This document shows positions 2,803 through 36,454 of a DNA stretch of 39,321 nt, piece by piece. This stretch comes from a virus: positions 1 through 39,321 of the IMG/VR virus record IMGVR_UViG_3300036766_001358, one strand, 5' to 3'. The translations under genes and the position numbers were made by a program. The notes beneath the pieces are model-generated. The model was not told where the DNA came from. It saw only the letters and a program-made list of their open reading frames with translations, and made no database searches. Position 1 is the first letter of the stretch, and the number at the start of each line of letters is the position of its first letter.

Positions 2803-5228
2803 TATTCCAGACCTCCCCATTCGCCCTCGCCGGCCTCTATCTCGGCCACCAGTTCGTCATAGGCGGTCAACGGAACGATGGTACAACGGCAACCGTAGTC
2901 GCTCAGGTACGGCATGGCCTCGTCCCTGGTCATGACGAGGCCTTCGAGCGCTGCGTGCTCGGGCCGGACAAGCTCGTCCTGGGCGGTCGTGTAGACGCCC
3001 TTCTTGACGCCGAGCTCCTTCATCGTCTCCCAGCGCGCCTCGGACGCGGCCTCGTGGACGACCTTCTGGACGGTCGCCGGGATGCCCTTGCCGAACTCGG
3101 TGAACTTGGCTGCGAGCCGGTCGGTGAGTTGGGCGTAGCTCTCGCCTTTCTTCAGCCCCTCGGCGAGCTCCTGCAATGCGGCCTTGTGCGTATCGAGGTA
3201 GGTGTTCTTTCCGAGAGTTTCAAGGTTGGCGAGGATGAGTTTGATACTGGCGCTGTCCTCGAGGATCGTGGGGTCGATCTGATCGCCCAGGTTGAGCGCC
3301 GTCTGGTCTGCGCCCGCCGCGACCGCTGCCTTCACGAACGCCTCGAACGCCTTGTCGAAGCTGGACCAGCCCTTCGCCTCCCATGCGGAGAGGTCCTTCA
3401 GGACGGCAGATAGATCGGGCGTGGCCGTGTTTTCGTTGGCCCCGGGCGCGGCCGCCTTGCCCGGGACGGGCGGCGGCGGTTCATGCCCGACCTCGCCGAC
3501 GTGCCGCTCCCAGGACTTCTTCAGCGCGGCGAGCATCTGCGCCTCCATGACCGTGACCAGATTGCGCCATGCGTCCGAGAAGGAGCCCTCCAGGGCCTCC
3601 GTCTTCTCGTACCACTTGCCGTACAACTTGGCGTGCACGGCGTCGCTCAGGGGCGGCCTGCGCGCCTCCTGGGGCGCGATGGCGGCGGCCTGGCCGGCCT
3701 TCTGCGGAGCCGGCGGGGCGGGAGGACCGGGAGGCGTGCCCTGCTGCCCGGGCGGCTCGGACGGGGCCCCGGGCTGGGCTCCTGGAGCGGGCGGGGCGGC
3801 CGGTGCCGGCTCTTTGAACTCCGGGGCCTTGCCGTCCTCGAGGACAGTGACGAGGTCCGAAATAGCGGGGACGGCGATAACGGCGCCGTTCTTGTCGATG
3901 AACCGGAGCTCCTTGTCTTTGGTGTATGCCTTGAACCCGATTCCGCCGAGCGCCTGGAGAGCGGCGCCGAGGTTCATGGCGGCGGTGGATTTCTTGGAGG
4001 CCACATCGGCCTGCTCATTATCATCGAGCTCCCAAAGGGGCGCCCAATCAAATTCGTCGTCGCCCTCGGGGATTATCTTGTTGAGCGTGAGAAGTTTGAG
4101 CAATTCCTGGAGCTTGGGCTGGATAACATTTGTCTGCTCGTCCTTGACGGAATCTTTCCATTCCCCGACATTTACCTCGGAGCCCGTGACCGACCCGGCC
4201 TCGGTGCCGAGGAGCGCAACCTTTGAGCCGAGCGAGCCAGCGGCGAGGGTCTGGAGCAAGTAATCGCCGTATGGCTTTGGGTTGAGGACCGAGGTCGGAC
4301 CCTGGAATTCCAGGGCGTAAGATTTCGGGAGCGTAAAATGGGATTTGACATCGATAAATTCCATGCTCTCGTCCGCCGCCTTGACCTCGTCATCATCGGC
4401 ATCGTCCGGGACCGTCAGGGTCGGGAACGGTTTTGCCGTCGAGAACGGGACCTCGCCCATTGCGAAATCAAAGTTTTTCTTGACGGTGTACTTGTCATAG
4501 AGCGGCTCAAACATGCTGATGCCGGCCGGGTCGTCGTCGAGGAAATCGTTGCGCCAATGAATGAACCTGGAGGCGGGGACCTTGATTTCCTCGGTGGTCT
4601 CCTTGACCGGGCGCTCAATGGTGTAGGCGATGATGGCGCCGTAATTCTCTTTGAGCGGGTCCCGTTCTTGCCAAATGGCCTTAACCCTGGTCTTGGGGAT
4701 GACATGGAGAAAATCAATGCCGGAGATATTGGTCGGCTCCTTGGTCGGGTCGTCCGGATTGCCCTCGACCCACCCGAGCACGATGAGGCAGTAACCATGG
4801 AATTTCATGGAGGTGTAGGCGCGTTTGTACATCTCCTTGACCTTGAGACGCTCGAACAGCTCCCGGACGGCTTTCTGTCTGGCCTCATTGGTCGAATTGT
4901 AGGTCAACCACCGATTGAACGAGGTCCCGGGCCATTTGGTAAGCGTCCTGAAAGCGAGCTCGTCCCGGCGGACGAGGTATAAGAGGTCCTCGGTTGTGAC
5001 ATCGACCGGGAAGGGCGAGTCCTGTTTGGTTGGGCGATCGCTGGTTTTCCGGGGCGAGGTCGGGGGGAAAAACGACTTGGACCGGCCGGAGTTGTATTTG
5101 ATTGAGGTGGTCCGGCTTGAGGGTTTAGAAGAAGATGCACCGGGGCGGCCGGACCGTTTCGCCCCGTGACGGGGCGCGGCCTTCGCCGTGCTATTCGCCG
5201 GTGACCCAATTTCGGCCGCGCCCCCCAT
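2802..5228 (-). CDS. Portal protein fused to MuF-type minor head protein
   Basis: An 808-residue fusion of the DNA-entry portal with a minor head protein. The first 70 residues are basic, Ser/Pro-rich and probably disordered. Residues of about 70 to 450 look like a DUF1073-type portal: YLVRRDELAFRTLTKWPG, HGYCLIVLGWVEGN, DFLHVIPKTRVKAIW and RFIHWRNDFLDDDPAG. A Pro/Ala-rich linker follows at about 480-530. The C-terminus is MuF-like: TDRLAAKF, QKVVHEAASEARW, VRPEHAALEGLVM and the closing GCRCTIVPL. Portal and MuF are more often separate adjacent genes. The ATG at 5228 lies about where a transcript from the upstream TATA-like box would begin, suggesting a leaderless message. A later start inside the disordered N-terminus is possible. 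Confidence 0.85.
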   Translation of the reverse strand: MGGAAEIGSPANSTAKAAPRHGAKRSGRPGASSSKPSSRTTSIKYNSGRSKSFFPPTSPRKTSDRPTKQDSPFPVDVTTEDLLYLVRRDELAFRTLTKWPGTSFNRWLTYNSTNEARQKAVRELFERLKVKEMYKRAYTSMKFHGYCLIVLGWVEGNPDDPTKEPTNISGIDFLHVIPKTRVKAIWQERDPLKENYGAIIAYTIERPVKETTEEIKVPASRFIHWRNDFLDDDPAGISMFEPLYDKYTVKKNFDFAMGEVPFSTAKPFPTLTVPDDADDDEVKAADESMEFIDVKSHFTLPKSYALEFQGPTSVLNPKPYGDYLLQTLAAGSLGSKVALLGTEAGSVTGSEVNVGEWKDSVKDEQTNVIQPKLQELLKLLTLNKIIPEGDDEFDWAPLWELDDNEQADVASKKSTAAMNLGAALQALGGIGFKAYTKDKELRFIDKNGAVIAVPAISDLVTVLEDGKAPEFKEPAPAAPPAPGAQPGAPSEPPGQQGTPPGPPAPPAPQKAGQAAAIAPQEARRPPLSDAVHAKLYGKWYEKTEALEGSFSDAWRNLVTVMEAQMLAALKKSWERHVGEVGHEPPPPVPGKAAAPGANENTATPDLSAVLKDLSAWEAKGWSSFDKAFEAFVKAAVAAGADQTALNLGDQIDPTILEDSASIKLILANLETLGKNTYLDTHKAALQELAEGLKKGESYAQLTDRLAAKFTEFGKGIPATVQKVVHEAASEARWETMKELGVKKGVYTTAQDELVRPEHAALEGLVMTRDEAMPYLSDYGCRCTIVPLTAYDELVAEIEAGEGEWGGLE

Positions 5229-5230
5229 GC

Positions 5231-5318
5231 GGCGAATTATATATTGATTTCGATATATTAAGAAATTCGGCGTACGTCAGGAAACGTCAAAAACACGTCA
5301 GAAAAACAACACTGTTAA
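5231..5318 (-). promoter_or_regulatory. Structural-module promoter with three phased ACGTCA repeats
   Basis: Gene-free stretch between the small regulator gene and the portal. On the minus strand there are TATA-like boxes, TTAATATATC (5254-5263) and CAATATATAA (about 5235-5245). The first is at archaeal spacing from the portal ATG at 5228. Upstream of them, ACGTCA (plus-strand reading) occurs at 5274-5279, 5284-5289 and 5295-5300. The 10- and 11-bp steps put all copies on one face of the helix. Minus-strand T-rich tracts between the copies could also serve as an oligo-T terminator for the upstream operon. Confidence 0.65.
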
Positions 5319-5492
5319 TTATATAGCCTTGCGTTTTTTGGCCGAGTCGTAGGCCTGGCGAACGATGCGAGTCACCACCTCATTGGCGGTAATCATTTTC
5401 TTGCCGGCCTCGCGTCGGGATTTCTCCCATTCGTCTTCATAAAGCGGGCGAAGTTTTTCAATGAGTTCATCATCGAGGTAGACATGCGCCAT
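5319..5492 (-). CDS. Small ribbon-helix-helix-like DNA-binding protein
   Basis: A 57-residue protein with the pattern of a ribbon-helix-helix (CopG/Arc-type) regulator. A short strand (AHVYLDDELIEKL) runs into a first helix, then ITANEVVTRIVRQAYD forms a probable second helix with a basic tail. The ATG at 5492 shares its A with the terminase stop TGA and has GGAGG eight bases upstream. It is the last gene before the structural promoter, whose three phased repeats are the kind of tandem site such proteins bind. It could therefore control late genes or itself. Fold and role are inferred from pattern only. Confidence 0.65.
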   Translation of the reverse strand: MAHVYLDDELIEKLRPLYEDEWEKSRREAGKKMITANEVVTRIVRQAYDSAKKRKAI

Positions 5493-6898
5493 CACAAGAT
5501 CCTCCGGAAAGTCCGGTTCGTCTCCCGGAACGAGCGGTGGGCGATCTCCAGGCTGTCGGCGCGGTCCAGGCGCCGGCCGCCCGGGAAATTGATGAGTTGG
5601 TGGACGAGCTCCTGCTGGCTGAGGTGGAAGTGGATCTGGCCGGCCTCGATGGGCACGCAGAGGGTGTCGATGCGGGCGATCTTGTCCTTGCCCTCGGTGG
5701 TCAGCCCAAAGGCCGGCAGGTCCAGGACCTTGAGCTCGGAGACTAAATCGGCCTGGGCCCCGACATCCTCGACGAATATCTTGCGCGGGTGCCAGCGGCC
5801 GAACGAGGCCAGGATCTGGCGCCGGCGCTCGACCGGGTCCCAGACGCCGGCGATGCTCTCGAGGACATATTCCCAATTGACCGTCTTGTCGTGGCCGAGG
5901 ACCGTGATGGCGGTCTCGGAGCCGATGTCGGTCTTGCCGGTGGCCGGGTCGATGGCCATGTGGATGAGGAGGCGGGCCTGGAGGCCGGGCGAGAGGGGAA
6001 GGTCGTAGTACCGGAACCAGTCCGGCTTGATGCGGGTGTTCTTGAGACTCGAGGGGTCGCAGAGGAACCGGAGCCCAAAGGCGATACTCCCACCCTTGTC
6101 CAATACCAATTGCGGCAGGTCCACTCCGGACCAGCGCTCTGGATAAAGCAGTTCGTACTCCATTCCGTGCCAAACGACGTTAGGGTACTGAGAGAAGTCC
6201 TGGGGCCGCTCATATCGGTGGAACGGATAGATATGCGTCTCCCAACCCTCGGCCATCAACGTCATATGCAAGTCGAGCTGGTGCCACAGGGAGCCGACCG
6301 CGACGACCGGTGGGCTGCCGTTGAGCCGGTCCAGGAATGTCATCTTGAGCCAGTTCAGGGCGTCCTCCCGGACGGCCTCGGAGGTTGTGGACCGCTCGTC
6401 GACGACATCGTCCAGGTAGCCCATACCGGCCCGGAGGCCCTCCATGTTCGTGCCGAGCGTGACCCCGACCCAGCTCGCATCCCGGCTCGCTGGCGTCCAG
6501 CCGGGCACCATGAAGACCTCGTCGGAATCCTTCCAGCCCGTTTGGTGCGATTCCTCCTTCAGGCGCTCGGCACCGTGGACCTTAGCGATGGCATCTCGGA
6601 GGAAGGCCCCGGTGCGCTTGACGACTTTGTCAGAGGCGGAGGCGAATAGCAGGTGCGGGTCGTCGCCTAAGAGGTCCTGGACCATGTGGAGCCCGATTAC
6701 GGTGCTCTTCAGGCAGCCGGGCGCCGTGAGGATGACGGTCTTCTTGCCGGCCGCCTTGTTGGCCCGGATGATCTCATAGATGCGCCGGGCGTGGGCGGGC
6801 AGGGGCCTGGCCCCAATGACCTTGCACAAATAGTCGACATCGGTCCGGGCCCGGAGGATACGGGCCTTCTGGGCGATGATCTTGGTGTAGGCGTTCAT
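5492..6898 (-). CDS. terL: Terminase large subunit (packaging ATPase-nuclease)
   Basis: DNA-packaging motor of 468 residues, a usual length. The N-terminal ATPase has a P-loop-like TAPGCLKST near residue 58 (a deviant Walker A with Lys-Ser-Thr kept), SASDKVVKRTGAFLRDAI, and Walker B GYLDDVVDE near residue 163. A coupling-like motif follows at VAVGSLWHQLDL. The C-terminal RNase H-like nuclease shows MAIDPATGK, IFVEDVGAQADLV and RADSLEIAHR with acidic residues at metal-binding positions. The start overlaps the small-subunit stop by four bases (ATGA), indicating translational coupling. It precedes the portal module, as usual. Confidence 0.92.
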   Translation of the reverse strand: MNAYTKIIAQKARILRARTDVDYLCKVIGARPLPAHARRIYEIIRANKAAGKKTVILTAPGCLKSTVIGLHMVQDLLGDDPHLLFASASDKVVKRTGAFLRDAIAKVHGAERLKEESHQTGWKDSDEVFMVPGWTPASRDASWVGVTLGTNMEGLRAGMGYLDDVVDERSTTSEAVREDALNWLKMTFLDRLNGSPPVVAVGSLWHQLDLHMTLMAEGWETHIYPFHRYERPQDFSQYPNVVWHGMEYELLYPERWSGVDLPQLVLDKGGSIAFGLRFLCDPSSLKNTRIKPDWFRYYDLPLSPGLQARLLIHMAIDPATGKTDIGSETAITVLGHDKTVNWEYVLESIAGVWDPVERRRQILASFGRWHPRKIFVEDVGAQADLVSELKVLDLPAFGLTTEGKDKIARIDTLCVPIEAGQIHFHLSQQELVHQLINFPGGRRLDRADSLEIAHRSFRETNRTFRRIL

Positions 6899-7524
6899 CG
6901 GGGCTGGTCATCCCCCATCTCGGTGATCGCTTTCAGGACCTCGGCCCGGGCGGCCTCGCCCAGGCGCGGCAGGAGATGGGCCAGGAAGGCCTCCGCCTCG
7001 GCCTTCACGGCGCCGGCGTAGACGCTCGTGTCGAAGGCAGCAGGGCCGTCCTTGCCCTCGCCGAGCAGGGCCTTGGCCATGGCCTCGGCCTGGTCGATGC
7101 CCCGCAGGAAGGGCTCCGTGGCCCGTACGAGGCCGATGAAGAACTTCTCGTCGGATGGCGTTATCCTCGGGGGCTTGACGCCAGGTTGCGGGTCGGCGGC
7201 CTGGTCGAACTTCCGCTTGTAGGCCTTGATGCGGGCCTCCAAGAGTGCCAGGTAAACAACCCGGCGATGTATAGTGTCGAGTTTAGTTTTGTTTAGTTCC
7301 GCGGCCTTGGCGTCCTGCGCGACACGTATTATATGTTGCTGGGCCTCAGATTGTTTAATTTTGTCGCTCGAGGGTTTAATTCTTCCTTCCAATATTTCTT
7401 TGGAAATTTGGCTAACCCTTCCCTTGGATATTTTGTATTTCTTGGCCAGTTCCGTGACCCGGTATTTCTGGCTCAGGATGTCGAGGCCCAGTTGGCGCTG
7501 CTGCTCCTTGGAGAGGGTGGTCAT
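6895..7524 (-). CDS. terS: Probable terminase small subunit (helix-turn-helix)
   Basis: A 209-residue protein just upstream of terL and overlapping it by four bases. The N-terminus has a helix-turn-helix-like segment, RVTELAKKYKISKGRVSQISKEIL (residues about 22-45), as in small terminase subunits that recognise the packaging site. The middle is basic and helical (RVVYLALLEARIKAYKRKFD). The C-terminus is Ala-rich and helical, suitable for oligomerisation. Its ATG overlaps the methyltransferase stop (ATGA). The call rests on position and the helix-turn-helix; the sequence alone would also fit another DNA-binding protein. Confidence 0.75.
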   Translation of the reverse strand: MTTLSKEQQRQLGLDILSQKYRVTELAKKYKISKGRVSQISKEILEGRIKPSSDKIKQSEAQQHIIRVAQDAKAAELNKTKLDTIHRRVVYLALLEARIKAYKRKFDQAADPQPGVKPPRITPSDEKFFIGLVRATEPFLRGIDQAEAMAKALLGEGKDGPAAFDTSVYAGAVKAEAEAFLAHLLPRLGEAARAEVLKAITEMGDDQPR

Positions 7525-17651: not shown

Positions 17652-18995
17652 TCACCCATATCCTATATTATCCCCTGGCCCCGGCGGGGGCTTGTATTCC
17701 TGGCTGGCCCCCATGGCGGCTTGGACCGTGACTTCGATCTTCGGCGTGATGGCCTTCTCGACCTTGTCGGCTATGACATCGGCGAGGGCGGGCATGGCCT
17801 CCTGGAAGGTTTCGGTGGCGATGCCCTTCATGATGGACGGGAGCTTCTTCTCGAGACCGTAGAGCTCGTCCTGGAGAGCGGTGAGGAGCGTTGGCGCATT
17901 GGCCCAGTTGAGGATCTTCCGGAGGCCCTCGGAGCGCTGAGCCGGCCGGAGCAGGAACTCGATCTCGGCGTACTTCTTGGACTGGTCGATGGTGATGGTG
18001 GTGCCGTCATCAGCCTTGATCTTGAGCCAGCCCTTGAAGGTGCCGCCAATGTCAGGGAGGGGAAAGGCGACATGGAGCTCATCGGGCTCGGGGAGGCCGA
18101 ACTGATACCCGTAGTTCTTCTGGAGCCAGTTGGCCACGCGCAAGGCGTCCTCCTCGAGGTCCCGGCCCAAGGCCTCCTGCAGGGCCTGGCGGTCGTGGAC
18201 GCTTTCCTCCGGCAGCCAGATGCGGATGCAGTGGCCCGGGAACTCCTGGAGCGTGACTATCCCGATGTCATCGAAAAGGACCTCTGCGGGCTTGTACCAG
18301 TCGTCTCCGTGGACGTTCTTGATGGGCGTGCCCCAGCGGAGCAGGTCCAGTTCCGGCCGCCTGCAGGCGCCCTGCTGGATCGTGAACTTGACGGCCCGGT
18401 GATGGACCCTGGCGAAGTGGTCCAGGGCCACGGGCGGGGCTGGCCTGACATCTTCCTCGTGGGCCTCGTCCTTGGCCACGGCCTCGACCTGGCCGGCCTG
18501 GCCGGGCGTGTCCATGCCTGCCGCTTCGGGCCCCGCCTTGGCCCCGTCCTGGCCCTCCTGGCCCGCTTTGCTGGATTGGCCCGGCTCCTGCTCCGGTCCC
18601 GGTTCTGGCCCTGCCACGGGCTCGGGCTTGGCCTCGTCCACAACCTTGTCGCTGAGGCTGGGGGAGGAGGGGGTTCCCACCGCCTTGTCATGAGAGCTGG
18701 TGCCACGGCCCCCAGCAATCGATGGTTTTGAAAAGTTTCCTGAAAAGTTTCTTGCAGAGTTTTGGCCCAGCTCGGATTTGTATCTGAGGCCCGTGGCCGT
18801 GGTCTCATAGATCGCTGGCGATTTCCCTATTCGCCGGAGGGCGCCCTCTGCTACGAGTTGGTTAATATAATTATATGCGGTTCTCTCGCTGAGGCCTGAG
18901 AAGAGGATGGATTCAGGGGCCGATAATCGGTTCTTGGACCCGTTGCCAAAGGCGAGCAAATTATACAGAAGTCGGAGCTTCAACTCACTCCTCAT
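17652..18995 (-). CDS. Winged-helix protein, possible replication initiator
   Basis: A 447-residue protein. Residues 1-70 are a winged-helix domain: LKLRLLYNLLAFGNGSKN, SGLSERTAYNYINQLVAEGALRRIG, TATGLRYKSEL. A long Pro/Gly/Glu/Ala linker covers about 90-190. The C-terminal domain (HHRAVKFTIQQG, VLFDDIGIVTLQEFPGHCIRIWLPEES, RVANWLQKNYGYQFGLPEPDELHVAFPLPD) is not recognised and ends in an amphipathic helix. The gene contains two direct repeats in the start of the linker, with a third copy upstream. A DNA-binding head, linker and internal iterons resemble the lambda O arrangement, hence the suggestion. A transcription regulator is the alternative. Confidence 0.68.
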   Translation of the reverse strand: MRSELKLRLLYNLLAFGNGSKNRLSAPESILFSGLSERTAYNYINQLVAEGALRRIGKSPAIYETTATGLRYKSELGQNSARNFSGNFSKPSIAGGRGTSSHDKAVGTPSSPSLSDKVVDEAKPEPVAGPEPGPEQEPGQSSKAGQEGQDGAKAGPEAAGMDTPGQAGQVEAVAKDEAHEEDVRPAPPVALDHFARVHHRAVKFTIQQGACRRPELDLLRWGTPIKNVHGDDWYKPAEVLFDDIGIVTLQEFPGHCIRIWLPEESVHDRQALQEALGRDLEEDALRVANWLQKNYGYQFGLPEPDELHVAFPLPDIGGTFKGWLKIKADDGTTITIDQSKKYAEIEFLLRPAQRSEGLRKILNWANAPTLLTALQDELYGLEKKLPSIMKGIATETFQEAMPALADVIADKVEKAITPKIEVTVQAAMGASQEYKPPPGPGDNIGYG

Positions 18996-19041
18996 CGGCC
19001 CTCGTTTCCCCAGAACTAACCACCTCTAATTGAAAAGTTTC
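18729..19041. repeat. Three copies of TGAAAAGTTTC (iteron-like)
   Basis: TGAAAAGTTTC occurs at 18729-18739, 18741-18751 (12-bp step) and 19031-19041. The second and third copies continue to match for about ten more bases (c/t TGCA, two purines, GTT). Each contains the inverted element GAAA-NN-TTTC. Two copies are inside the winged-helix gene and one is just before it. They could be origin iterons, an operator, or the trace of a small duplication, since both encode an NFS peptide. Confidence 0.55.
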
Positions 19042-24006: not shown

Positions 24007-27000
24007 CTATGGCTTGACCACCTGGATGGCCAACGTCACGCGCCGGCCCGGGATGAACTCGGGCCGCTCTGCCCATATATTCCCTGCGCCCGATGTCGGG
24101 TTCACGGAATACGCGGCGACCTGAACGAAGTTGGTCCCGGCGTAGTCGTCGGCGTATCCAAACCCTATCTCGGATATGACCTGCGGCCATGATCTGTTCA
24201 GCCCGATATCGTTCTTGCGAAGTTGCGCCTGGAGCATGACGAACCCGGACGCCATGACGAAGGCCTTGGCGCGGACCTGCCCGATCTTGTAGCCCAGGTT
24301 CACGCCGGCCGGCGTCCCGGTCCCGACCTCGAGGAAATATACCTTCGACGGGAGATAGGTGTGCGTCGGCTCCCGGTACATCAGGGGTATGTCGGCACGG
24401 AGACTCACCCCGACCGCCCCGATATCCTCACGCAGGGATGTCGGGCACTCGCTCGCGCCGGAATGGTGCGCCGGGCAGCCGCTCGACCCATCCTCACGCT
24501 GACGATCCGAACCCATCCGGATACGGCCGCCAAGGCCGGTCAAGCCTCTGGTGATGCCCTCGATGCGGCCGAGCGTCGAGCCGTCCTTGAGGCCGCCTAT
24601 CCGGTCGACCGAGGGGGTGCGGTAGATCCACTCGGGGTTGAGGAACCCGAGCTCCAGGGCCGTCGGCTTCCCGGTCCCGCCGGACCATCGAACGCCCTTG
24701 ACGCAGAATATGCCGTCAATGCCCTTGCGCGAGATTTTCAGATAGACCAGCTCGTTGCAATGGCGGAATGGCCCGGTCGCGAGGCTCTGGTCGAGGCCTT
24801 CGAGCGTGACGTTCCCGCCCACTTCGGTCTCCATGCCGGCGTCTGCGAGCTGGATGGTCTGACCTGCAAAGTCACCGTACCCGACGCCGATGCCGCCGGT
24901 GAGGAACACGCTCCCGCGCTGCAGGCTCTTGCCGGTCCCGGCGGCGCCTCCTCCCGCCGCGAGCACGTCGCCGCCCATGTTCCTGATGATGGCGGTCTCG
25001 GCCGCTTTCTTGAAGTTGCGGAAGACCTGACCATCCACGATGCGCACATAATTCTGCGAGACCGGGGAATCCCTGGAATCGTAGAATGTTCGGACGGACT
25101 TTTGGGCGCTTGAATAGAGGTTCCAGGTAGTGGCGTTCGGGAACTTGGCGTCCCGGACCTCGAGCGTGACCGCGCCGGCGGCCGATTTGTACACCCGTGC
25201 GACCACGGGGCAATTCTTCGCCAGCGTCTCGAGGGCGTCGAGCCCGTTGCTGTTCTCGAGCTGGATGCAATATTGCTTCGTGGCCGGCTCGGTGATGGAG
25301 ATGTCCAGGACCGTGTAGAGGTCCGAGACGATTGCCTTCGCCCAGGACTGGAACACGGTCGCGTAGGTGATGGTCCCTTTCCAATAGGTCGCCCTCACGA
25401 GTTTCTGGCCGGTGAATAGGATGGGGACGGTGCCGTCGCGCCGCCATGAGTACTGGCCGCATTGGTCGCCGCCCTGCAGTTGCCTCAAGACGAAGTAGAT
25501 GAGGTGCGCACCGCCGGCGTCGTCCTCGATCTTGTATTCGCCCTTGGTGTAATCGAGGTCAATCCAATGGCTCTCGAAATCCATCCCATAGTAGATGGCG
25601 AACTTGGCGGCATTCACGATATAGGCGCCACCGTTGACGCTCTCGACGCCACGCCTCGAGAGGGGCAACATGTCGGCGGTCGCCGAGCACCGGAGTTCGA
25701 AGTAATTGTTGGCCCCAGCGGCGGATACCCGGAGGACTATCCAATACATCGATCCGGATTGGAGCACGAGTTGGGTGGCATCACTGGCCGCTGCGAAGAA
25801 ATCAAGCTCGACCCAGCTCTCGTTCCCGACGCCGACGCCCCAGTTTGCCCTGGGCGAGGTGAGGGTGGCGACGATGGTCCCGGACGGAACGCCGTTGTTG
25901 TCGGTCTGTATCTCGCAGACAAGATCAGCGACGTTGCCGCCGGCGTTCTGGTAGCCCTTGAGCCATACCTTGCGGAACTCGCCTGAGCCTGCGATGAAGC
26001 TCTGCGCCACCTTCGTATTGACGCCGGCCCCCTGGTCGAATACCCGCCATACGCCGGGTGTCAGGGCCGCCCAAACGCCCTCCCGTATCAGGAGCAGCCG
26101 GAGGCGCTCGAGCGGCACCTGCGGAGCCTTGTCAGCGTCCAGGGTGGCCGTGAGCCGCTGGACATAGCCGTTATTGAGCGTCAGGGCGATCGGCAGGGTC
26201 TCGTCGACGATATGGGTGTTGCCCCATACCGCAAAGGGTATCTGTCGCTCGAACATGACGCCCAGGATGCCGATGCACCGGACCGAGACCTCGTTCTTCC
26301 GGAGCGGCTTGGTGATGGACCGGACGTAGCCATAGAAGAACGTGTCGCCCCATGTGGCCTCGCCCGATTCCCGCCGGTACATCTCGACAATGTCGTCCTC
26401 CTCGATGGCCTCGGCGTCCTCGGTATCGACAAAGTTGAGCTCTATCTCCGGGACCTCGTTCCGGCCGTCGCCGAGGGTCCAGGACTTGAGCCGGAGCTCG
26501 TCCGTCTCGGTCGACATGGACCCGATGATGACCTTGTGCTGATAGGTCCCCATCGAGGACGGCGTTCCGCTGAAATTTCCGGAGAGCTCCTCAAGCAGGA
26601 TTGTATCCGACCCTGCCGATGCAAAATAGACCTTGACCTTGATGTCGGTGCTGAGTGTCGGCGAGAACCCAAAGTCAAAGTCGGCGCTATAGAGCGTGAT
26701 GGTGGATGTGATGTCGACCGTCCTCGTGGAAAGGACCGAGTTATCCGACGCCTTGATTATCTCGACCTTGGTGATTTTATTGCTCGCCGACCCGTTCGAG
26801 ACCGTGACCGTGAGAGATTGAAGCTGACTCCCGGTCGGCATTGAGATAGATTGAGACCTCCAATTCCCTGTAGACTTGTAGGGGAGGACGACGACATTCT
26901 GAGCATAGTAGTCGTGCGAGCTCCCGGCCGGGCTGTAGCTGTTATTGAAGTTTGCACCGCTGTAGGTCGGGTTATCGGAGTAGCCTTTTCCGATGATGAT

Positions 27001-27609
27001 GGCCGGGGAACCGCTCCACCCGGCCGGCCGAGCGGCTGACCGGATGGATGTCCAGGATGTCCCGTTGGTGGAATAGAACGCCTCGTAAGTCGTGGAGGTG
27101 AGGACAATCTTTAACCAGTACCAGGTCCCGGTCGATGGTGTACCTGTTTCCGCGTACCCGGTCGTGCTGGCGTCGTTGTACCCGCATTGGTATCGAAGTG
27201 TCCCGCCGGAATTTGCGAGCGAGACTCGGACCCAGTTGTCCACATCCCAATACATGACCGCGCCGACAGCCCACGAATTGGCTCCGGAGCCGGATGGGAA
27301 TTTAAACCGGCCGATGAGAATGATGTTGTCGATGCCGGGCGACCGTTCGATATGGGCAAAGGCATGTTCCCGGCTGTTTATCCGCCACTTCCCGAGGTCG
27401 ACCAGGTCCCAAGAATCGATGACATCCTCGGATGTGTCGTCGTGCTCGGTCCAGCCGGCTTTTCGGCCGGTCGACGCCGGCCGGTCGCAGAATGTCGGCG
27501 CGCTTCCGAGAGCGTTGTCGGCAATGAGAGCGTTGTCCGTGGCCGTGTCCGCATCGCTCTTGTCGCCGCCGTCAAAGTCGGCGGTCGTGGTGATGGTGAA
27601 GTCGGCCAG
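24007..27609 (-). CDS. Large tail hub/receptor-binding protein with N-terminal lectin-like domain, probable CTG start
   Basis: A 1200-residue tail-tip protein. Residues of about 65-240 look like a concanavalin-like (LamG-type) domain (IIGRFKF-like strand, MYWDVDNWVRVSLAN, WYWLKIVLTSTTYEAFYSTNGTSWT). A beta-sandwich follows, then a hub-like domain near residues 360-450 (VPEIELNFVDTEDAEAIEEDDIVEMYRR, FFYGYVRSITKPLR, VSVRCIGILGVMFERQIP) as in distal tail or gp27-like proteins. The first ATG is at 27255 and would cut into the lectin domain. The frame is open and coding-like back to CTG GCC at 27609, seven bases after GGAGG, with no ATG, GTG or TTG between the in-frame TGA and Met119. CTG is therefore proposed. 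Confidence 0.82.
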   Translation of the reverse strand: MADFTITTTADFDGGDKSDADTATDNALIADNALGSAPTFCDRPASTGRKAGWTEHDDTSEDVIDSWDLVDLGKWRINSREHAFAHIERSPGIDNIILIGRFKFPSGSGANSWAVGAVMYWDVDNWVRVSLANSGGTLRYQCGYNDASTTGYAETGTPSTGTWYWLKIVLTSTTYEAFYSTNGTSWTSIRSAARPAGWSGSPAIIIGKGYSDNPTYSGANFNNSYSPAGSSHDYYAQNVVVLPYKSTGNWRSQSISMPTGSQLQSLTVTVSNGSASNKITKVEIIKASDNSVLSTRTVDITSTITLYSADFDFGFSPTLSTDIKVKVYFASAGSDTILLEELSGNFSGTPSSMGTYQHKVIIGSMSTETDELRLKSWTLGDGRNEVPEIELNFVDTEDAEAIEEDDIVEMYRRESGEATWGDTFFYGYVRSITKPLRKNEVSVRCIGILGVMFERQIPFAVWGNTHIVDETLPIALTLNNGYVQRLTATLDADKAPQVPLERLRLLLIREGVWAALTPGVWRVFDQGAGVNTKVAQSFIAGSGEFRKVWLKGYQNAGGNVADLVCEIQTDNNGVPSGTIVATLTSPRANWGVGVGNESWVELDFFAAASDATQLVLQSGSMYWIVLRVSAAGANNYFELRCSATADMLPLSRRGVESVNGGAYIVNAAKFAIYYGMDFESHWIDLDYTKGEYKIEDDAGGAHLIYFVLRQLQGGDQCGQYSWRRDGTVPILFTGQKLVRATYWKGTITYATVFQSWAKAIVSDLYTVLDISITEPATKQYCIQLENSNGLDALETLAKNCPVVARVYKSAAGAVTLEVRDAKFPNATTWNLYSSAQKSVRTFYDSRDSPVSQNYVRIVDGQVFRNFKKAAETAIIRNMGGDVLAAGGGAAGTGKSLQRGSVFLTGGIGVGYGDFAGQTIQLADAGMETEVGGNVTLEGLDQSLATGPFRHCNELVYLKISRKGIDGIFCVKGVRWSGGTGKPTALELGFLNPEWIYRTPSVDRIGGLKDGSTLGRIEGITRGLTGLGGRIRMGSDRQREDGSSGCPAHHSGASECPTSLREDIGAVGVSLRADIPLMYREPTHTYLPSKVYFLEVGTGTPAGVNLGYKIGQVRAKAFVMASGFVMLQAQLRKNDIGLNRSWPQVISEIGFGYADDYAGTNFVQVAAYSVNPTSGAGNIWAERPEFIPGRRVTLAIQVVKP

Positions 27610-27611
27610 GC

Positions 27612-27851
27612 TCAGACCTCCTTGATTTTCAGCTCAAGGACCTTGTCGGTCTTTTCCACCTTGTTGCTCTTCAGCTGTGTGGTCGTGATGGTGATTGTCA
27701 ACAGGTTGGTCTCCATCGTCGTGGTGACATCGCATTCCTCGGACGGGATGCCAAGGAGCTCGAGCGCCCAATGGACAAACTCCGGGAGCGGGAGCTTTGC
27801 ATACATCGCTTTCCAGTCGGCTTTCTTGAGATCGATTGTGGTCTTGGCCAT
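27612..27851 (-). CDS. Small tail-module protein
   Basis: A 79-residue protein: a helical N-terminus (KKADWKAMYAKLPLPEFVHWALELLGI), then a Thr-rich beta part (CDVTTTMETNLLTITITTTQLKS) and a charged tail. The ATG at 27851 shares a base with the preceding stop. It sits between a fibre-like protein and the large hub, so it is probably a virion or assembly component, but no family is recognised. Confidence 0.68.
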   Translation of the reverse strand: MAKTTIDLKKADWKAMYAKLPLPEFVHWALELLGIPSEECDVTTTMETNLLTITITTTQLKSNKVEKTDKVLELKIKEV

Positions 27852-28171
27852 CAGACTACCTTCTGGAGCACTGCCCGGACCGGAAAGTCGGGGATGGATG
27901 TGTAGTACTTGGAGCCGCCGCCCATCTCGACGTAGCCCTCGCAGCAGTAGTTCCCGGCCTCATCGAGGTCATCGGTCGTCGTAGTCGTATATGAGAAGGT
28001 CCCATTGGCGGCAACCTCTATCGTCCCGTCCTTTGTCATTAATGCCCCAGACGGTTTCTTGAAGATGATCTTCAGGATCGTGTAGCCGGTCAGGTTCTTG
28101 GGCGCGCCGCTCTCCATGACCTGCAGGATGGTCTTGTAGCCGATCGCATATTGATAAACCTCGTCGCTCAA
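27851..28171 (-). CDS. Baseplate upper-protein-like N-terminal domain (BppU-like), TTG start
   Basis: A 106-residue beta-sandwich protein: KTILQVMESGAPKNLTGYTILKIIFKKPSGALMTKDGTIEV, FSYTTTTTDDLDEAGNYCCEGYVEM, YYTSIPDFPVRAVL. This follows the pattern of the BppU-type N-terminal Ig-like domain that attaches fibres to baseplates. The TTG at 28171 overlaps the preceding stop by four bases (TTGA) and has GGTGAG upstream. It probably contributes to the tail tip. Confidence 0.72.
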   Translation of the reverse strand: MSDEVYQYAIGYKTILQVMESGAPKNLTGYTILKIIFKKPSGALMTKDGTIEVAANGTFSYTTTTTDDLDEAGNYCCEGYVEMGGGSKYYTSIPDFPVRAVLQKVV

Positions 28172-28434
28172 TCTCTCACCACCTGATTGTTCTCCGTCTT
28201 GACTGTCACCGTTCTCTGCGCGCTCGTCGCCACTTGGACCGGGATGGTCGCCACGCTCCCCACGGCCACGCCCAGGGCCTCCGAGGTTGCGACCGCGGCC
28301 TGGAACGAGGCCTGGGACAAGGCCGTGACCTGGAAGGTTCGGATGACCGCCGGCGTAATGGCCTGGAGGAGTGTGCCCCAGCCGTAGGTCGCGCCCGGGT
28401 CCTCACCAAAGCCGTAGACGCCGACATTAGACGT
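28168..28434 (-). CDS. Small tail-module protein, probable ACG start
   Basis: An 88-residue protein (SNVGVYGFGEDPGATYGWGTLLQAITPAVI, AVATSEALGVAVGSVATIPVQVAT). The frame is coding-like and ends in a four-base overlap with the next TTG start. No ATG, GTG or TTG occurs between the in-frame TGA and a TTG at codon 39. ACG TCT at 28434 is seven bases after GGTG, so ACG is proposed. A competing frame with an ATG at 28427 gives an Arg/Pro-rich shadow product. Gly and Ala content suggests a structural tail role. Confidence 0.6.
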   Translation of the reverse strand, partial: TSNVGVYGFGEDPGATYGWGTLLQAITPAVIRTFQVTALSQASFQAAVATSEALGVAVGSVATIPVQVATSAQRTVTVKTENNQVVRD

Positions 28435-29167
28435 GGGCGCTCACCTCATCCATAGTCGCGAAGGCGGTCGCCGACATAGACACATCGGAGCCGGCCATCG
28501 TCCTCGGCTTCCAGTCGTACAGGACGGTCGCCTCGTCGTCGTCGTAGATGTGCCAGTGCTTGTCCGTATCGTCCCACACCTTCCTATTGGTCCAGAACTT
28601 GCGGAGGAAATCGATGGTCGTGATGAGGGCTGCGAGGGCCAGCTCGACGTCGTCGACATTCCCATCCACGGTCGCGAGCGCGGCGGCCTGAGCGGCCGTC
28701 TTCGCCGCGTCGTACGCCCCGGTGAGCGTCATGGCCGCCCCAGGCGCCGCCGCGCTCTTGGCGGCGTCGTATGCGCCCGTGAGGGTCATCGCGTCGCCTG
28801 GGGCCGCGCGCGAGCCCACGGAGGCATTCAGGTTGGATAGGCCGGCCGCGCTCGCGTCGTAGACATCGAGCTCCGTGACCTGGACGAGGGCCGGGAAGGT
28901 CCGGACACCCGCTTTGGCCGACCGCACGACCATGAAGCCGACCGTGTCGAGCTCGCCGGCCGTCGCCTCGTAGTAGTATAGGCCGTTCCCGATCTCCGAC
29001 ATGGAGCCGGCGAAGTCCGCCTCCGCGCCCCCGTTCTTGCAGACCTTGAGGTCCGAGCCGGAGAAGGTGAGGCCCGTCTCGGGCGTCTTGCCATCCGTGT
29101 CGTCCACGAAGTAGAACGGGATGCGCCTGCGCGCGGCCGTGGCCTGGGACTTCTTGAGCTGAATCAT
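28427..29167 (-). CDS. Tail fibre/baseplate protein with tandem Ala-rich repeats
   Basis: A 246-residue protein. The N-terminus (IPFYFVDDTDGKTPETGLTFSGSDLKVCKNGG, GNGLYYYEATAGELDTVGFMVV) is the beta domain common in baseplate and fibre proteins. Residues of about 120-165 hold a tandem repeat whose core is MTLTGAYDAAK, present twice. The C-terminus is a helix followed by FWTNRKVWDDTDKHWHIYDDDEATVLYDWKP. The ATG at 29167 shares a base with the preceding stop, with AGGGGG eight bases upstream. It probably links fibres to the tail tip. Confidence 0.78.
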   Translation of the reverse strand: MIQLKKSQATAARRRIPFYFVDDTDGKTPETGLTFSGSDLKVCKNGGAEADFAGSMSEIGNGLYYYEATAGELDTVGFMVVRSAKAGVRTFPALVQVTELDVYDASAAGLSNLNASVGSRAAPGDAMTLTGAYDAAKSAAAPGAAMTLTGAYDAAKTAAQAAALATVDGNVDDVELALAALITTIDFLRKFWTNRKVWDDTDKHWHIYDDDEATVLYDWKPRTMAGSDVSMSATAFATMDEVSAHV

Positions 29168-31654: not shown

Positions 31655-32779
31655 TCAGTTGTACGGCGCCTCGATGACCTCGAACTTCACCTCATATCTT
31701 CCCTCATAGAAGGCGCGCCCGGGCGGGATGAGATCATCGTGGTCCCGCAGATATGCCTTCCCAAAGTGCCCGTCTTGCCATGTGAACTTGACCTTCTCAC
31801 CCTGCGCTGATTTCAACTCCATAATCTGGGCGAGGAACTTTCGCTGGGCGAGCGGGTGGTCCCATACCGTCCCGTAACGGAGATAGGCCACTACAGTCAC
31901 AACCGAGGACTTCCGGCTCGTTATCTCGATGTATGACCCGTCGGAGCCGAGGAATGTGTCTTCCACCGACTCCACCGCCCTGTACTTCACAGTCACCTTC
32001 GTCGTCCGGCTCAGCAGCACGATGTAGTAGTTGGTCGAGTAGATGCTCGGCAATAGGTCGTCGAAGAAGCTCTGCAGCAGCGTGATGGTCCCGGTCGGCT
32101 TGATATACCATGTCCGGTTCTCATAAGTCTTTATGACGGACCTCGTCAGCGTCAATGTCCCGGCCACGATCTGCTCCTCCGGCTCGGTCGTGACCTTGAA
32201 CATGTACAGCGCATCGAGTAGCGTCAATGTCTCGCCCGATGTCTTCCCATGGAGCCTGCTCATCGACCACATGTAGCTGTAGATGACTTCGATTGTCCCG
32301 CCTGCCGTGGGAATGGGGTAGGACATACCCGTCAGGGTCGGGAAGTGAGCGGTCCCGCCGAGCATGCCCGCCTCGTAGTGGTTCACCCTGTAAGTCGCAT
32401 CCCCAATGAACTGGACCTTGGCGCCCGCGGCGATCGCATAGCCGACAACGCCGGTCCTGCTCTGGAAGGTCGCGGCCACATTCGCGGCCGCGCCTACGGC
32501 CGAGATTTTGAAGATGCTGGTCCCCTGGACGTCGACGCTCCACATGTTCGTCACGGAGCCGTTGATGGTAACGACGCCGTTGCTGTTGAACCTGAGCGTG
32601 ACGCTCTTGCCCGTCTGGATGGACACGCCCGCGCACGAGACGGCGGCCGTGTTGAAAATGAAGGTCCCGTTGTCGTCGCCCCCGGACTGGGTGATGTCGA
32701 TGGTATCGCCCGAGGTGATGGTGTAGTCCGTCCAGTTCTTCGTCCCGCCGTTCGGGATGACGACGCTGATAACTGCCAT
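31655..32779 (-). CDS. Tail-tip/baseplate protein
   Basis: A 374-residue protein just after the tape measure, where distal tail proteins normally lie. Residues of about 1-150 show regular beta-helix-like strands (DTIDITQSGGDDNGTFIFNTAAVSCAGVSIQTGKSVTLRF, GVVTINGSVTNMWSVDVQG). The later part is mixed (VTVKYRAVESVEDTFLGSDGSYIEITSR; QGEKVKFTWQDGHFGKAYL). GAGGTGA lies before the ATG at 32779. It could be a distal tail or fibre-adaptor protein. Confidence 0.72.
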   Translation of the reverse strand: MAVISVVIPNGGTKNWTDYTITSGDTIDITQSGGDDNGTFIFNTAAVSCAGVSIQTGKSVTLRFNSNGVVTINGSVTNMWSVDVQGTSIFKISAVGAAANVAATFQSRTGVVGYAIAAGAKVQFIGDATYRVNHYEAGMLGGTAHFPTLTGMSYPIPTAGGTIEVIYSYMWSMSRLHGKTSGETLTLLDALYMFKVTTEPEEQIVAGTLTLTRSVIKTYENRTWYIKPTGTITLLQSFFDDLLPSIYSTNYYIVLLSRTTKVTVKYRAVESVEDTFLGSDGSYIEITSRKSSVVTVVAYLRYGTVWDHPLAQRKFLAQIMELKSAQGEKVKFTWQDGHFGKAYLRDHDDLIPPGRAFYEGRYEVKFEVIEAPYN

Positions 32780-32788
32780 TTCTTCACC

Positions 32789-34318
32789 TCATGTCATTGA
32801 GCCCTTGAGCGCCTCGACGACCTTCGCCGCGATGCGCGTCTCGTCGGCGTGGTAGATGTGCTGGATGACCGTGAACTGGCCGCCGCGGCTGGATGCCGGC
32901 GCGCCGAACTTGTCGGCCGCCGTGGATACCGCCGGGCCGGTCGCCGCAGCGAACTTATCCGCGACCGTGGCCGCAACATCAGGGATGGTCGCGACGCCGG
33001 CCCCCATGCCCTCGACGTAGGTCCTCATCAGGTTCCGGCCCCACACCATGATGTCCTTCAGCGGGCCATGCTTGGGGGGCGACTCCGCCTTGAGCGTCAG
33101 GCCCATCGCCTCTGCGATGATCTCCAGGGTGTACCTCGTCTCCGGGTCCTGCGTCTGGTCATACATGCCCTGGAGGTATGCCCGGACGGTCTCCTCGCCT
33201 GATGTTTTCGCGGCCCGGTAGATGCGTTGCCGCTCGCCCGGATCGTACCACCAGGCGTCCCTATCGGGGTACTGCGCCAGCGCCGCCTCCTCCGCGGCCT
33301 TCTTGAGCGCCTCGGCCTCGGCGAGGAGTTGTGTCCCGGAAGGGCGGACCGGCTGCTGGTCCCGTATCTGCTGGTTGAGGACGGCGAGGTCCTCGTTGAG
33401 GCTGAATACCTGGTCCCGGTATGCGGCCGCCTTCTCCATGAGCCCCTGCTCCTCCGCCGCCCGTGCCTTTTGCTCCAAGTCGGCGATATTGGCCTGCAGG
33501 GCGTCGCGCTGCTTGATGAGGCCGGACGGCTCGCCCTCGCCGGTCACGGTCTTGCGGATCGCGGTTTCATACTTCGTGACCGCGTCTGTAGCGGCTTGGA
33601 TGGCCCGCTCATTCTCTATCTGCTTCTCCTTGTACATGTTGACGACCGTGACGCCCAGGGCGAGCGCAGCGGTGACGCCGGCGATGGCGAGGCCGGCCAT
33701 GCCGATTGGCGTCGATAGGGCAGACATGAGGCCGCCCATGTTCGAGCTCGCAAGATTGTTCGCCTCCTTCGCGACCGTGTTCTCGCCGACGGCGATTGTG
33801 TCCACGGCGACCGCCGCGGTATGCATGCCCCACATGATGACCATGCGCTGATACTGGACATAGAGCCCGAGGAGCATCCCAGCCGCCTGGATGCCCATCC
33901 CGATCATGGCTGAAACGCCACCAGTCGCTTTATCCAGTTCCATCCAGAATTGCTTGACCGCCTCCTTCGCGCCGCTGTGCCCGGCCATCATCGATGCGCC
34001 CCATTGCTCGATGGTGGACGCGGTCGCGTTCAGGATATGATTGTACTGCATCTGCTCGATGTTGGCGAGTTTGTATTCCTTGGTAGCCTGCTTTATCTCG
34101 CGGCCATGCTCGATGACCTTGTGGGTCGCAATGCTGCAAGATTCGCCGACCACACCATAGTCATGGACAGCGGCGTCGCCCATCTCTGTCGTCTGGCCAG
34201 CTGTCTCGGAGGCCGAGGCCCCTATCGTCTTGATGGCTTCGGCTGCGCCCTTGAGCGTCTCGCTCGCCTGGTCCGCCGCCGTGATTAGGACGCCGATCTC
34301 GACCTGGCTCTCAGGCAT
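32789..34318 (-). CDS. Tail tape measure protein (short)
   Basis: Tail-length ruler of 509 residues. The N-terminus is helical (ITAADQASETLKGAAEAIKTIG). Hydrophobic segments follow at about 137-165 (GIQAAGMLLGLYVQYQRMVIMWGM) and 205-228 (MAGLAIAGVTAALALGVTVVNMY), then a coiled-coil region (DALQANIADLEQKARAAEEQ). The C-terminus has the typical SPPKHGPLKDIMVWGRNLMRTYVEGM. With about 0.15 nm per residue, the known ruler relation, a tail near 75 nm is expected. The start overlaps the chaperone extension by eight bases, with GGTGAT upstream. Confidence 0.85.
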   Translation of the reverse strand: MPESQVEIGVLITAADQASETLKGAAEAIKTIGASASETAGQTTEMGDAAVHDYGVVGESCSIATHKVIEHGREIKQATKEYKLANIEQMQYNHILNATASTIEQWGASMMAGHSGAKEAVKQFWMELDKATGGVSAMIGMGIQAAGMLLGLYVQYQRMVIMWGMHTAAVAVDTIAVGENTVAKEANNLASSNMGGLMSALSTPIGMAGLAIAGVTAALALGVTVVNMYKEKQIENERAIQAATDAVTKYETAIRKTVTGEGEPSGLIKQRDALQANIADLEQKARAAEEQGLMEKAAAYRDQVFSLNEDLAVLNQQIRDQQPVRPSGTQLLAEAEALKKAAEEAALAQYPDRDAWWYDPGERQRIYRAAKTSGEETVRAYLQGMYDQTQDPETRYTLEIIAEAMGLTLKAESPPKHGPLKDIMVWGRNLMRTYVEGMGAGVATIPDVAATVADKFAAATGPAVSTAADKFGAPASSRGGQFTVIQHIYHADETRIAAKVVEALKGSMT

Positions 34319-35485: not shown

Positions 35486-36454
35486 CTATACGTAGGCCGT
35501 GACCTGCGTATTCTGGTAGAGGATGGTGAACGGGTTCCCGCCCGCCACCGGTGTCTGCATCTCGTATTCGATGTTCTCGATGGTCCGCTCCCTCTTGTTG
35601 ACGTTCGCCTTGTGCGTCTTGTAGATGGCCTCGCCCATCTGGAACTTGAGGCAGTAATACTGCGTCGCGCCAGCGAGCTCATTGTGCGTTATCTCGATGG
35701 CGATGGCCTGGGGCGTGAGGTAGTTGGCCGGGGCCACGGCGGTGGCGCCGCCCATGAAGTACTTGAACTGGTCTACGCTATCGAAGAAAAGGTCCATCGT
35801 GCCCTTTACGATGAGCCCTCCGAAGTTGGTAGAGTAGAGTTCGCGCGAGCCATGCGCGAAGTCGTCCTCGGAGACCTGGTTCTCTATCTCCAGCGTCATG
35901 CTCTTGATACGCGCCACCTGGGAGCCGCCTATCTTGAGTACCGAGTGGACGTTGTGGTAGACCTTTTTCGTGGAGAATGTCGGCGTCGCCAGGCTGTCTA
36001 TCTTCGCGGTCGCACCGCAGGTCTCGAAATCGCAGATGATCTTGCCTTTGGGGGCTATGGTCACCTTGAGTTTCTTGACCGTCGAGCCGGGCATGGACTT
36101 CTGGCCGCCCGTGACATCCGAGCCGACCGCGATCGTGAGCGGGACCGGGCTTTCCTTCGGGACCATCGTATGCAGGTATACGCCCGATTCCGGAACAGTC
36201 ACCGTATCCGAGCCCGCGCCCATGAGGGCCGCAAGCAGCAGGCCGATGTTCTCCTGCTCGGCGTAGCACTTGAAACCGCCCTTGACATTGAACGGGCCCG
36301 GGGCCGGCTTCTCCTTGAAGCGCGTCCCCATCGTGAAGTCCATGTCAACGCTGTTGTCGAGCGAGTAGTTCTCGTCGATAGCATTGACGTATGCGGTCAG
36401 GGCCACCTGCGTCTTGAAGGTCGTCTCCTTCCCAACTCCTACAAAGCGTGTCAT
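35486..36454 (-). CDS. Major tail (tube) protein
   Basis: A 322-residue protein with the usual tail tube start: TRFVGVGKETTFKTQVALTAYVNAIDENYSLDNSVDMDF, then strands FNVKGGFKCYAEQENIGLLLAALMGAG, a middle insertion, and KSMTLEIENQVSEDDFAHGSRELYS, with the C-terminal NPFTILYQNTQVTAYV. This order matches siphovirus tube proteins. It is the only candidate for tube; no sheath gene follows, which supports a non-contractile tail. GGGAGGG lies before the ATG at 36454. Confidence 0.85.
   Translation of the reverse strand: MTRFVGVGKETTFKTQVALTAYVNAIDENYSLDNSVDMDFTMGTRFKEKPAPGPFNVKGGFKCYAEQENIGLLLAALMGAGSDTVTVPESGVYLHTMVPKESPVPLTIAVGSDVTGGQKSMPGSTVKKLKVTIAPKGKIICDFETCGATAKIDSLATPTFSTKKVYHNVHSVLKIGGSQVARIKSMTLEIENQVSEDDFAHGSRELYSTNFGGLIVKGTMDLFFDSVDQFKYFMGGATAVAPANYLTPQAIAIEITHNELAGATQYYCLKFQMGEAIYKTHKANVNKRERTIENIEYEMQTPVAGGNPFTILYQNTQVTAYV

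Follow-up and report, generated by a model that had tools for sequence, protein, structure and literature searches.

A long open frame on the minus strand of IMG/VR virus record IMGVR_UViG_3300036766_001358 raises the question of where translation of a putative tail-tip protein begins. The stretch analysed, positions 1 to 39,321 of that record (39,321 nucleotides), is referred to here as the window. Within it, the frame spans 27633 to 24007 without interruption; upstream it is bounded by an in-frame TGA at 27636-27634. This gives 1208 residues from stop to stop and 1200 counted from a CTG at 27609. The earlier note had claimed that no ATG, GTG or TTG lies between this TGA and Met119 and had read the CTG as the start codon. 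A scan of in-frame NTG codons indeed found no ATG, GTG or TTG ahead of the ATG at 27255; the only NTG codons there are three CTGs, at 27615, 27609 and 27405. The reading of CTG as the start is supported by the homologues, which carry ATG at exactly the codon aligned with CTG 27609, and translation therefore most likely starts there rather than at Met119. The features of the start region are as follows.

24007..27609, minus strand: putative lectin and tail-hub fusion gene; open frame, 52% full-length identity to the fusion in relative L023
27612..27851, minus strand: upstream 79-aa gene; TGA stop two bases before CTG 27609
27617..27623, minus strand: Shine-Dalgarno (SD) sequence AAGGAGG; -12.4 kcal/mol, 7-nt spacer to CTG
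27607..27609, minus strand: probable CTG start codon; aligned to the relatives' ATG, optimal coding start
27256..27606, minus strand: codons 2-118; omitted if only standard start codons are allowed
27253..27255, minus strand: Met119, first ATG; within predicted strand 113-122, SD energy -2.4 kcal/mol

On the minus strand the junction reads ...ATC AAG GAG GTC TGA GC CTG GCC GAC TTC ACC.... The earlier placement of CTG GCC seven bases past a GGAGG at the end of the previous gene is correct, the spacer between AAGGAGG (27623-27617) and CTG 27609 being TCTGAGC, 7 nt. The SD duplex energy of this site (-12.4 kcal/mol, against -2.4 for ATG 27255) may be compared with a median of -10.1 kcal/mol for the 32 assigned canonical starts. 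A match as strong occurs at 0.19% of minus-strand positions and at 2 of 547 minus-strand CTGs, CTG 27609 included. CTG 27405 has an SD energy of -3.9 kcal/mol. CTG 27615 was rejected as a start; it lies 1 nt from the SD and is not the codon aligned with the relatives' ATG.

The 118 codons ahead of ATG 27255 had also been described as open and coding-like, and both codon usage and selection bear this out. In a codon-usage scan of the 47 predicted genes that used no start-codon information, the optimal coding start of the hub ORF fell exactly at 27609. This ORF was the sole large outlier for coding ahead of its first ATG, GTG or TTG, with 42.5 bits over 118 codons; the runner-up gene reached 9.7 bits. 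Codons 2-118, compared with relatives L011, L002 or L006, gave pN of 0.33-0.44 and pS of 0.66-0.98 (near saturation), and are under purifying selection similar to that on codons 119-345.

Scans of IMG/VR proteins with the N-terminal module recovered the near-identical pair L002 and L003 (54-55% identity), L011 (52%) and L006 (44% and 42%). L006 carries at 4951-7080 a 709-aa protein with the lectin-like module twice in tandem, on a 95-kb viral contig. A scan with the hub module found L023 (IMGVR_UViG_3300031707_006566), which encodes a complete 1,200-residue lectin and hub protein with 52% identity over its full length. The alignment of homologues that the earlier note had proposed as a check finds ATG at the codon matching CTG 27609 in L002, L003, L006, L011 and L023, five relatives from four lineages (L002/L003, L006, L011, L023). 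The CTG itself is thus unconserved, as every relative found has ATG; those relatives share 42-55% identity over the common module and are not the same virus. The starts MADFLVTTTADFDGG, MSDYDFNSTAHFDGG and MADFSFTSTADFDNG of L002/L003/L006/L011 align with LADFTITTTADFDGG of the window, free of indels from the start codon to a conserved TADFD-like motif. In these four relatives, a purine-rich SD-like stretch precedes the ATG, which overlaps the upstream gene.

The L023 fusion is the closest counterpart, sharing the two-part architecture and length, the small upstream gene and the position of the SD. Its start differs: ATG 8948, behind a small gene of the same kind, overlaps the upstream TAA, whereas the window has CTG. 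The two start regions align without gaps over 60 nt (window CAAGGAGGTCTGAGCCTGGCCGACTTCACCATC, L023 CAAGGAGAAATCATAATGCCTGACTTTACCATC), and the TAATG stop/start of L023 corresponds to GCCTG in the window, whose upstream stop (TGA) lies earlier. Three of the five TAATG bases have changed, so the region has truly diverged and does not hold a single isolated odd base. The 79-aa upstream gene has a PLP-x-(F/Y)V-like motif and recurs as a conserved neighbour next to the lectin genes of L002, L011 and L023; it and other nearby genes are in synteny with the L011 lectin cassette.

The protein divides into two modules.

26569..27609, minus strand: predicted N-terminal lectin-like module, residues 1-347; from alignment, AF2 models, Foldseek and sub-cut-off Pfam matches
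24007..26553, minus strand: putative hub module; 63% identity to the free-standing gene of L007/L008

Residues 1-347 are predicted to form a ConA-like beta sandwich followed by a second beta domain. AlphaFold (AF2) models built from 5 and 6 sequences had mean pLDDT of 57 and 61, with low values over residues 1-94 and higher ones over residues ~95-195. In the models Met119 lies inside strand 113-122 of the sandwich and at least three strands precede it, so that a start there would leave a broken domain. Foldseek matched the model to ConA-like proteins, namely 3o12, 3mep and GH43 C-terminal domains, with E of about 1e-6 to 1e-7, and at the level of fold the term 'lectin-like' used previously holds. 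Pfam DUF1349 and GH43_C2 gave weak matches over residues 123-201, counted in the stop-to-stop frame, below their gathering scores (18.3 versus 32.4 and 17.9 versus 22.7 bits). The window module thus shares its fold with these ConA-like modules (DUF1349, GH43_C2, PDB 3o12 and 3mep, and the C-terminal domains of GH43 xylosidases), but is just about 10-16% identical to them and stays under the Pfam cut-offs. The putative lectin module may bind a receptor.

The hub module starts at about residue 353. Its ortholog in L007 and L008 (IMGVR 3300035179_000699 and 3300035659_000060), the latter from a sister virus, is a separate gene of ~850 aa without the lectin module, whose own ATG comes right after a distal-tail-like gene. 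The in-frame fusion of lectin to hub is found in the window and L023. In the window the gene lies downstream of the tail tube gene at 35486-36454, followed by 32789-34318 and 31655-32779; the order tube, tape-measure-like, distal-tail-like, hub is kept in L007 and in the part of L023 that was read. The PHROG baseplate hub profile phrog_177 matches weakly (E=0.061 for the window protein, E=0.0021 for the L008 ortholog). Of the earlier designation 'tail hub', then, gene order gives support while the family match is weak, and because of these two lines of evidence we tentatively regard the protein as a tail or baseplate hub. The tube protein itself (minus strand, Phage_tube_2) has as its sole match among phage records the archaeal Haloarcula virus HHTV-1, at 23%, and the terminase and ParB have weak matches to many bacterial phages.

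Several other starts in these viruses are unusual. The coding ORF at 28440-28168 of the window (minus strand; APTSNVGVYGFGEDPGATYGWG...) begins without an in-frame ATG, GTG or TTG. It has an ATG at 28427 in a TAATG overlap, one base out of frame, and an ACG at 28434 with a strong SD (GAGGTGA, -9.9). A near-cognate start would account for this arrangement, as would an indel of one base. In the ORF at 19025-17652 (minus strand), CTG 19013 has a strong SD (GAGGTGGTTAGTT-CTG, -10.3) and stands six codons ahead of an ATG whose SD is weak (-5.5). In the sister virus (L008, also G001, IMGVR_UViG_3300035659_000060), 57 coding-like codons precede the first ATG of the gene at 6874-6491 (minus strand), where CTG GAC GAA, just past an SD GAGGGGGG (GGGGGG) and an adjacent upstream TGA, is a candidate CTG start. 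No relatives turned up in searches with the 17652-19025 protein or with this sister gene. The portal gene of the window (5276-5228, minus strand) looks leaderless: the SD is absent (+2.4), and TTAATATAT at about -29 is accompanied by TATAAT-N7-ATG, with TTATTATAT and TATAAA-N6-GTG in the sister counterpart. In the leader of the integrase ORF (17089-17026, minus strand), AGGTGATAAANTATAAGTGAA upstream of the first GTG is conserved in the window, L008 and L023. This leader is coding-like, yet its differences from the sister virus are nearly all non-synonymous, and we did not count it; it represents either an ATA start or a non-coding leader.

Could the site have another origin? The same codon may be the start, with ATG in the real genome and the C an assembly or sequencing error. 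Every relative carries ATG here, the window contig is a single metagenomic record, and ORF 28440..28168, seemingly one base out of frame with its TAATG start, lacks a standard start and so keeps this doubt alive. Searches for a near-identical contig of the same virus (exact pattern in viral_contigs; protein and genome scans) returned none, the protein scans yielding diverged relatives only, and DNA and tblastn searches of phage and plasmid records for the lectin/hub found nothing. However, the portal, terminase, hub, integrase and ParB align to the sister virus unbroken and without frameshifts, the bases flanking the junction have diverged as well, and the sister's own candidate at G001:6874 argues for natural CTG. 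By a rough estimate, an A-to-C error at one of 47 starts is several-fold less likely than a natural CTG at its published frequency. We therefore consider a consensus error unlikely.

It is also unlikely that this virus group is unusually tolerant of near-cognate starts, through relaxed start selection in the host or a deliberate lowering of tail-tip dosage, although near-cognate candidates with strong SDs occur at CTG 27609, ACG 28434 and CTG 19013 of the window and at CTG 6874 of the sister virus. Met119 is the first standard start codon of the hub frame, and translation from it would leave the upstream frame untranslated or decayed. This is highly improbable given that the upstream protein sequence is conserved under purifying selection and carries the coding signal noted above, that homologues start 118 codons earlier, and that 27255 is without an SD and falls within a strand of the predicted sandwich. 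Equally hard to sustain is a longer fusion made by -1 frameshifting out of the 79-aa gene. The hub frame extends 21 nt back into that gene without a stop, in the -1 register relative to it, and the SD-like AAGGAGG could promote slippage, but the overlap CTG AAA ATC AAG GAG GTC TGA holds no X XXY YYZ slippery heptamer and the relatives retain two separate genes, the second with ATG.

We consider it probable that the gene starts at CTG 27609, the original ATG having become CTG in this lineage, and that the SD and coupling help initiation at CUG. The analysis establishes the start position, the coding of codons 2-118, the SD, the fusion and the fold class. The ancestral start would have been an ATG overlapping the upstream stop (TAATG/TGATG), as it still is in the relatives, and the junction would have drifted to TGA-GC-CTG in the window lineage, the base being truly C. 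The CUG would be decoded as (f)Met by the initiator tRNA, aided by the near-perfect AAGGAGG at optimal spacing, and ribosomes terminating on the 79-aa gene two bases upstream may help initiation. The product would be the complete tail-tip protein of 1,200 residues, in which an intact ConA-like module at the N-terminus is joined to a baseplate-hub module, with (M)ADFTITTTADFDGGDK as the expected N-terminal peptide. According to figures cited in PMC11497404, CUG makes up 0.024% of bacterial starts and its output in E. coli is 0.86% of that of AUG. Such low efficiency may be bearable because the hub would be needed in few copies. Reinitiation at non-canonical starts has been described (PMC4648390), but in the setting of eukaryotic scanning, and is not drawn on here.

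Bacteria are known to use CTG starts, and phage annotations include them; the window gene adds a well-anchored case, not a new kind. ORF10 of phage phiB124-14 has an annotated CTG start (PMC3338817) in which, as here, CTG replaces ATG. That start is an annotation call, whereas the site in the window is fixed by the ATG of homologues and belongs to a large tail-tip structural gene. It is a rare case of a CTG site anchored by homologues of four lineages, one with the identical domain fusion. Gene callers limited to ATG, GTG and TTG would begin the protein at Met119 and lose a third of the lectin-like module, and an annotation from that point would mislead receptor-binding or structural analysis.
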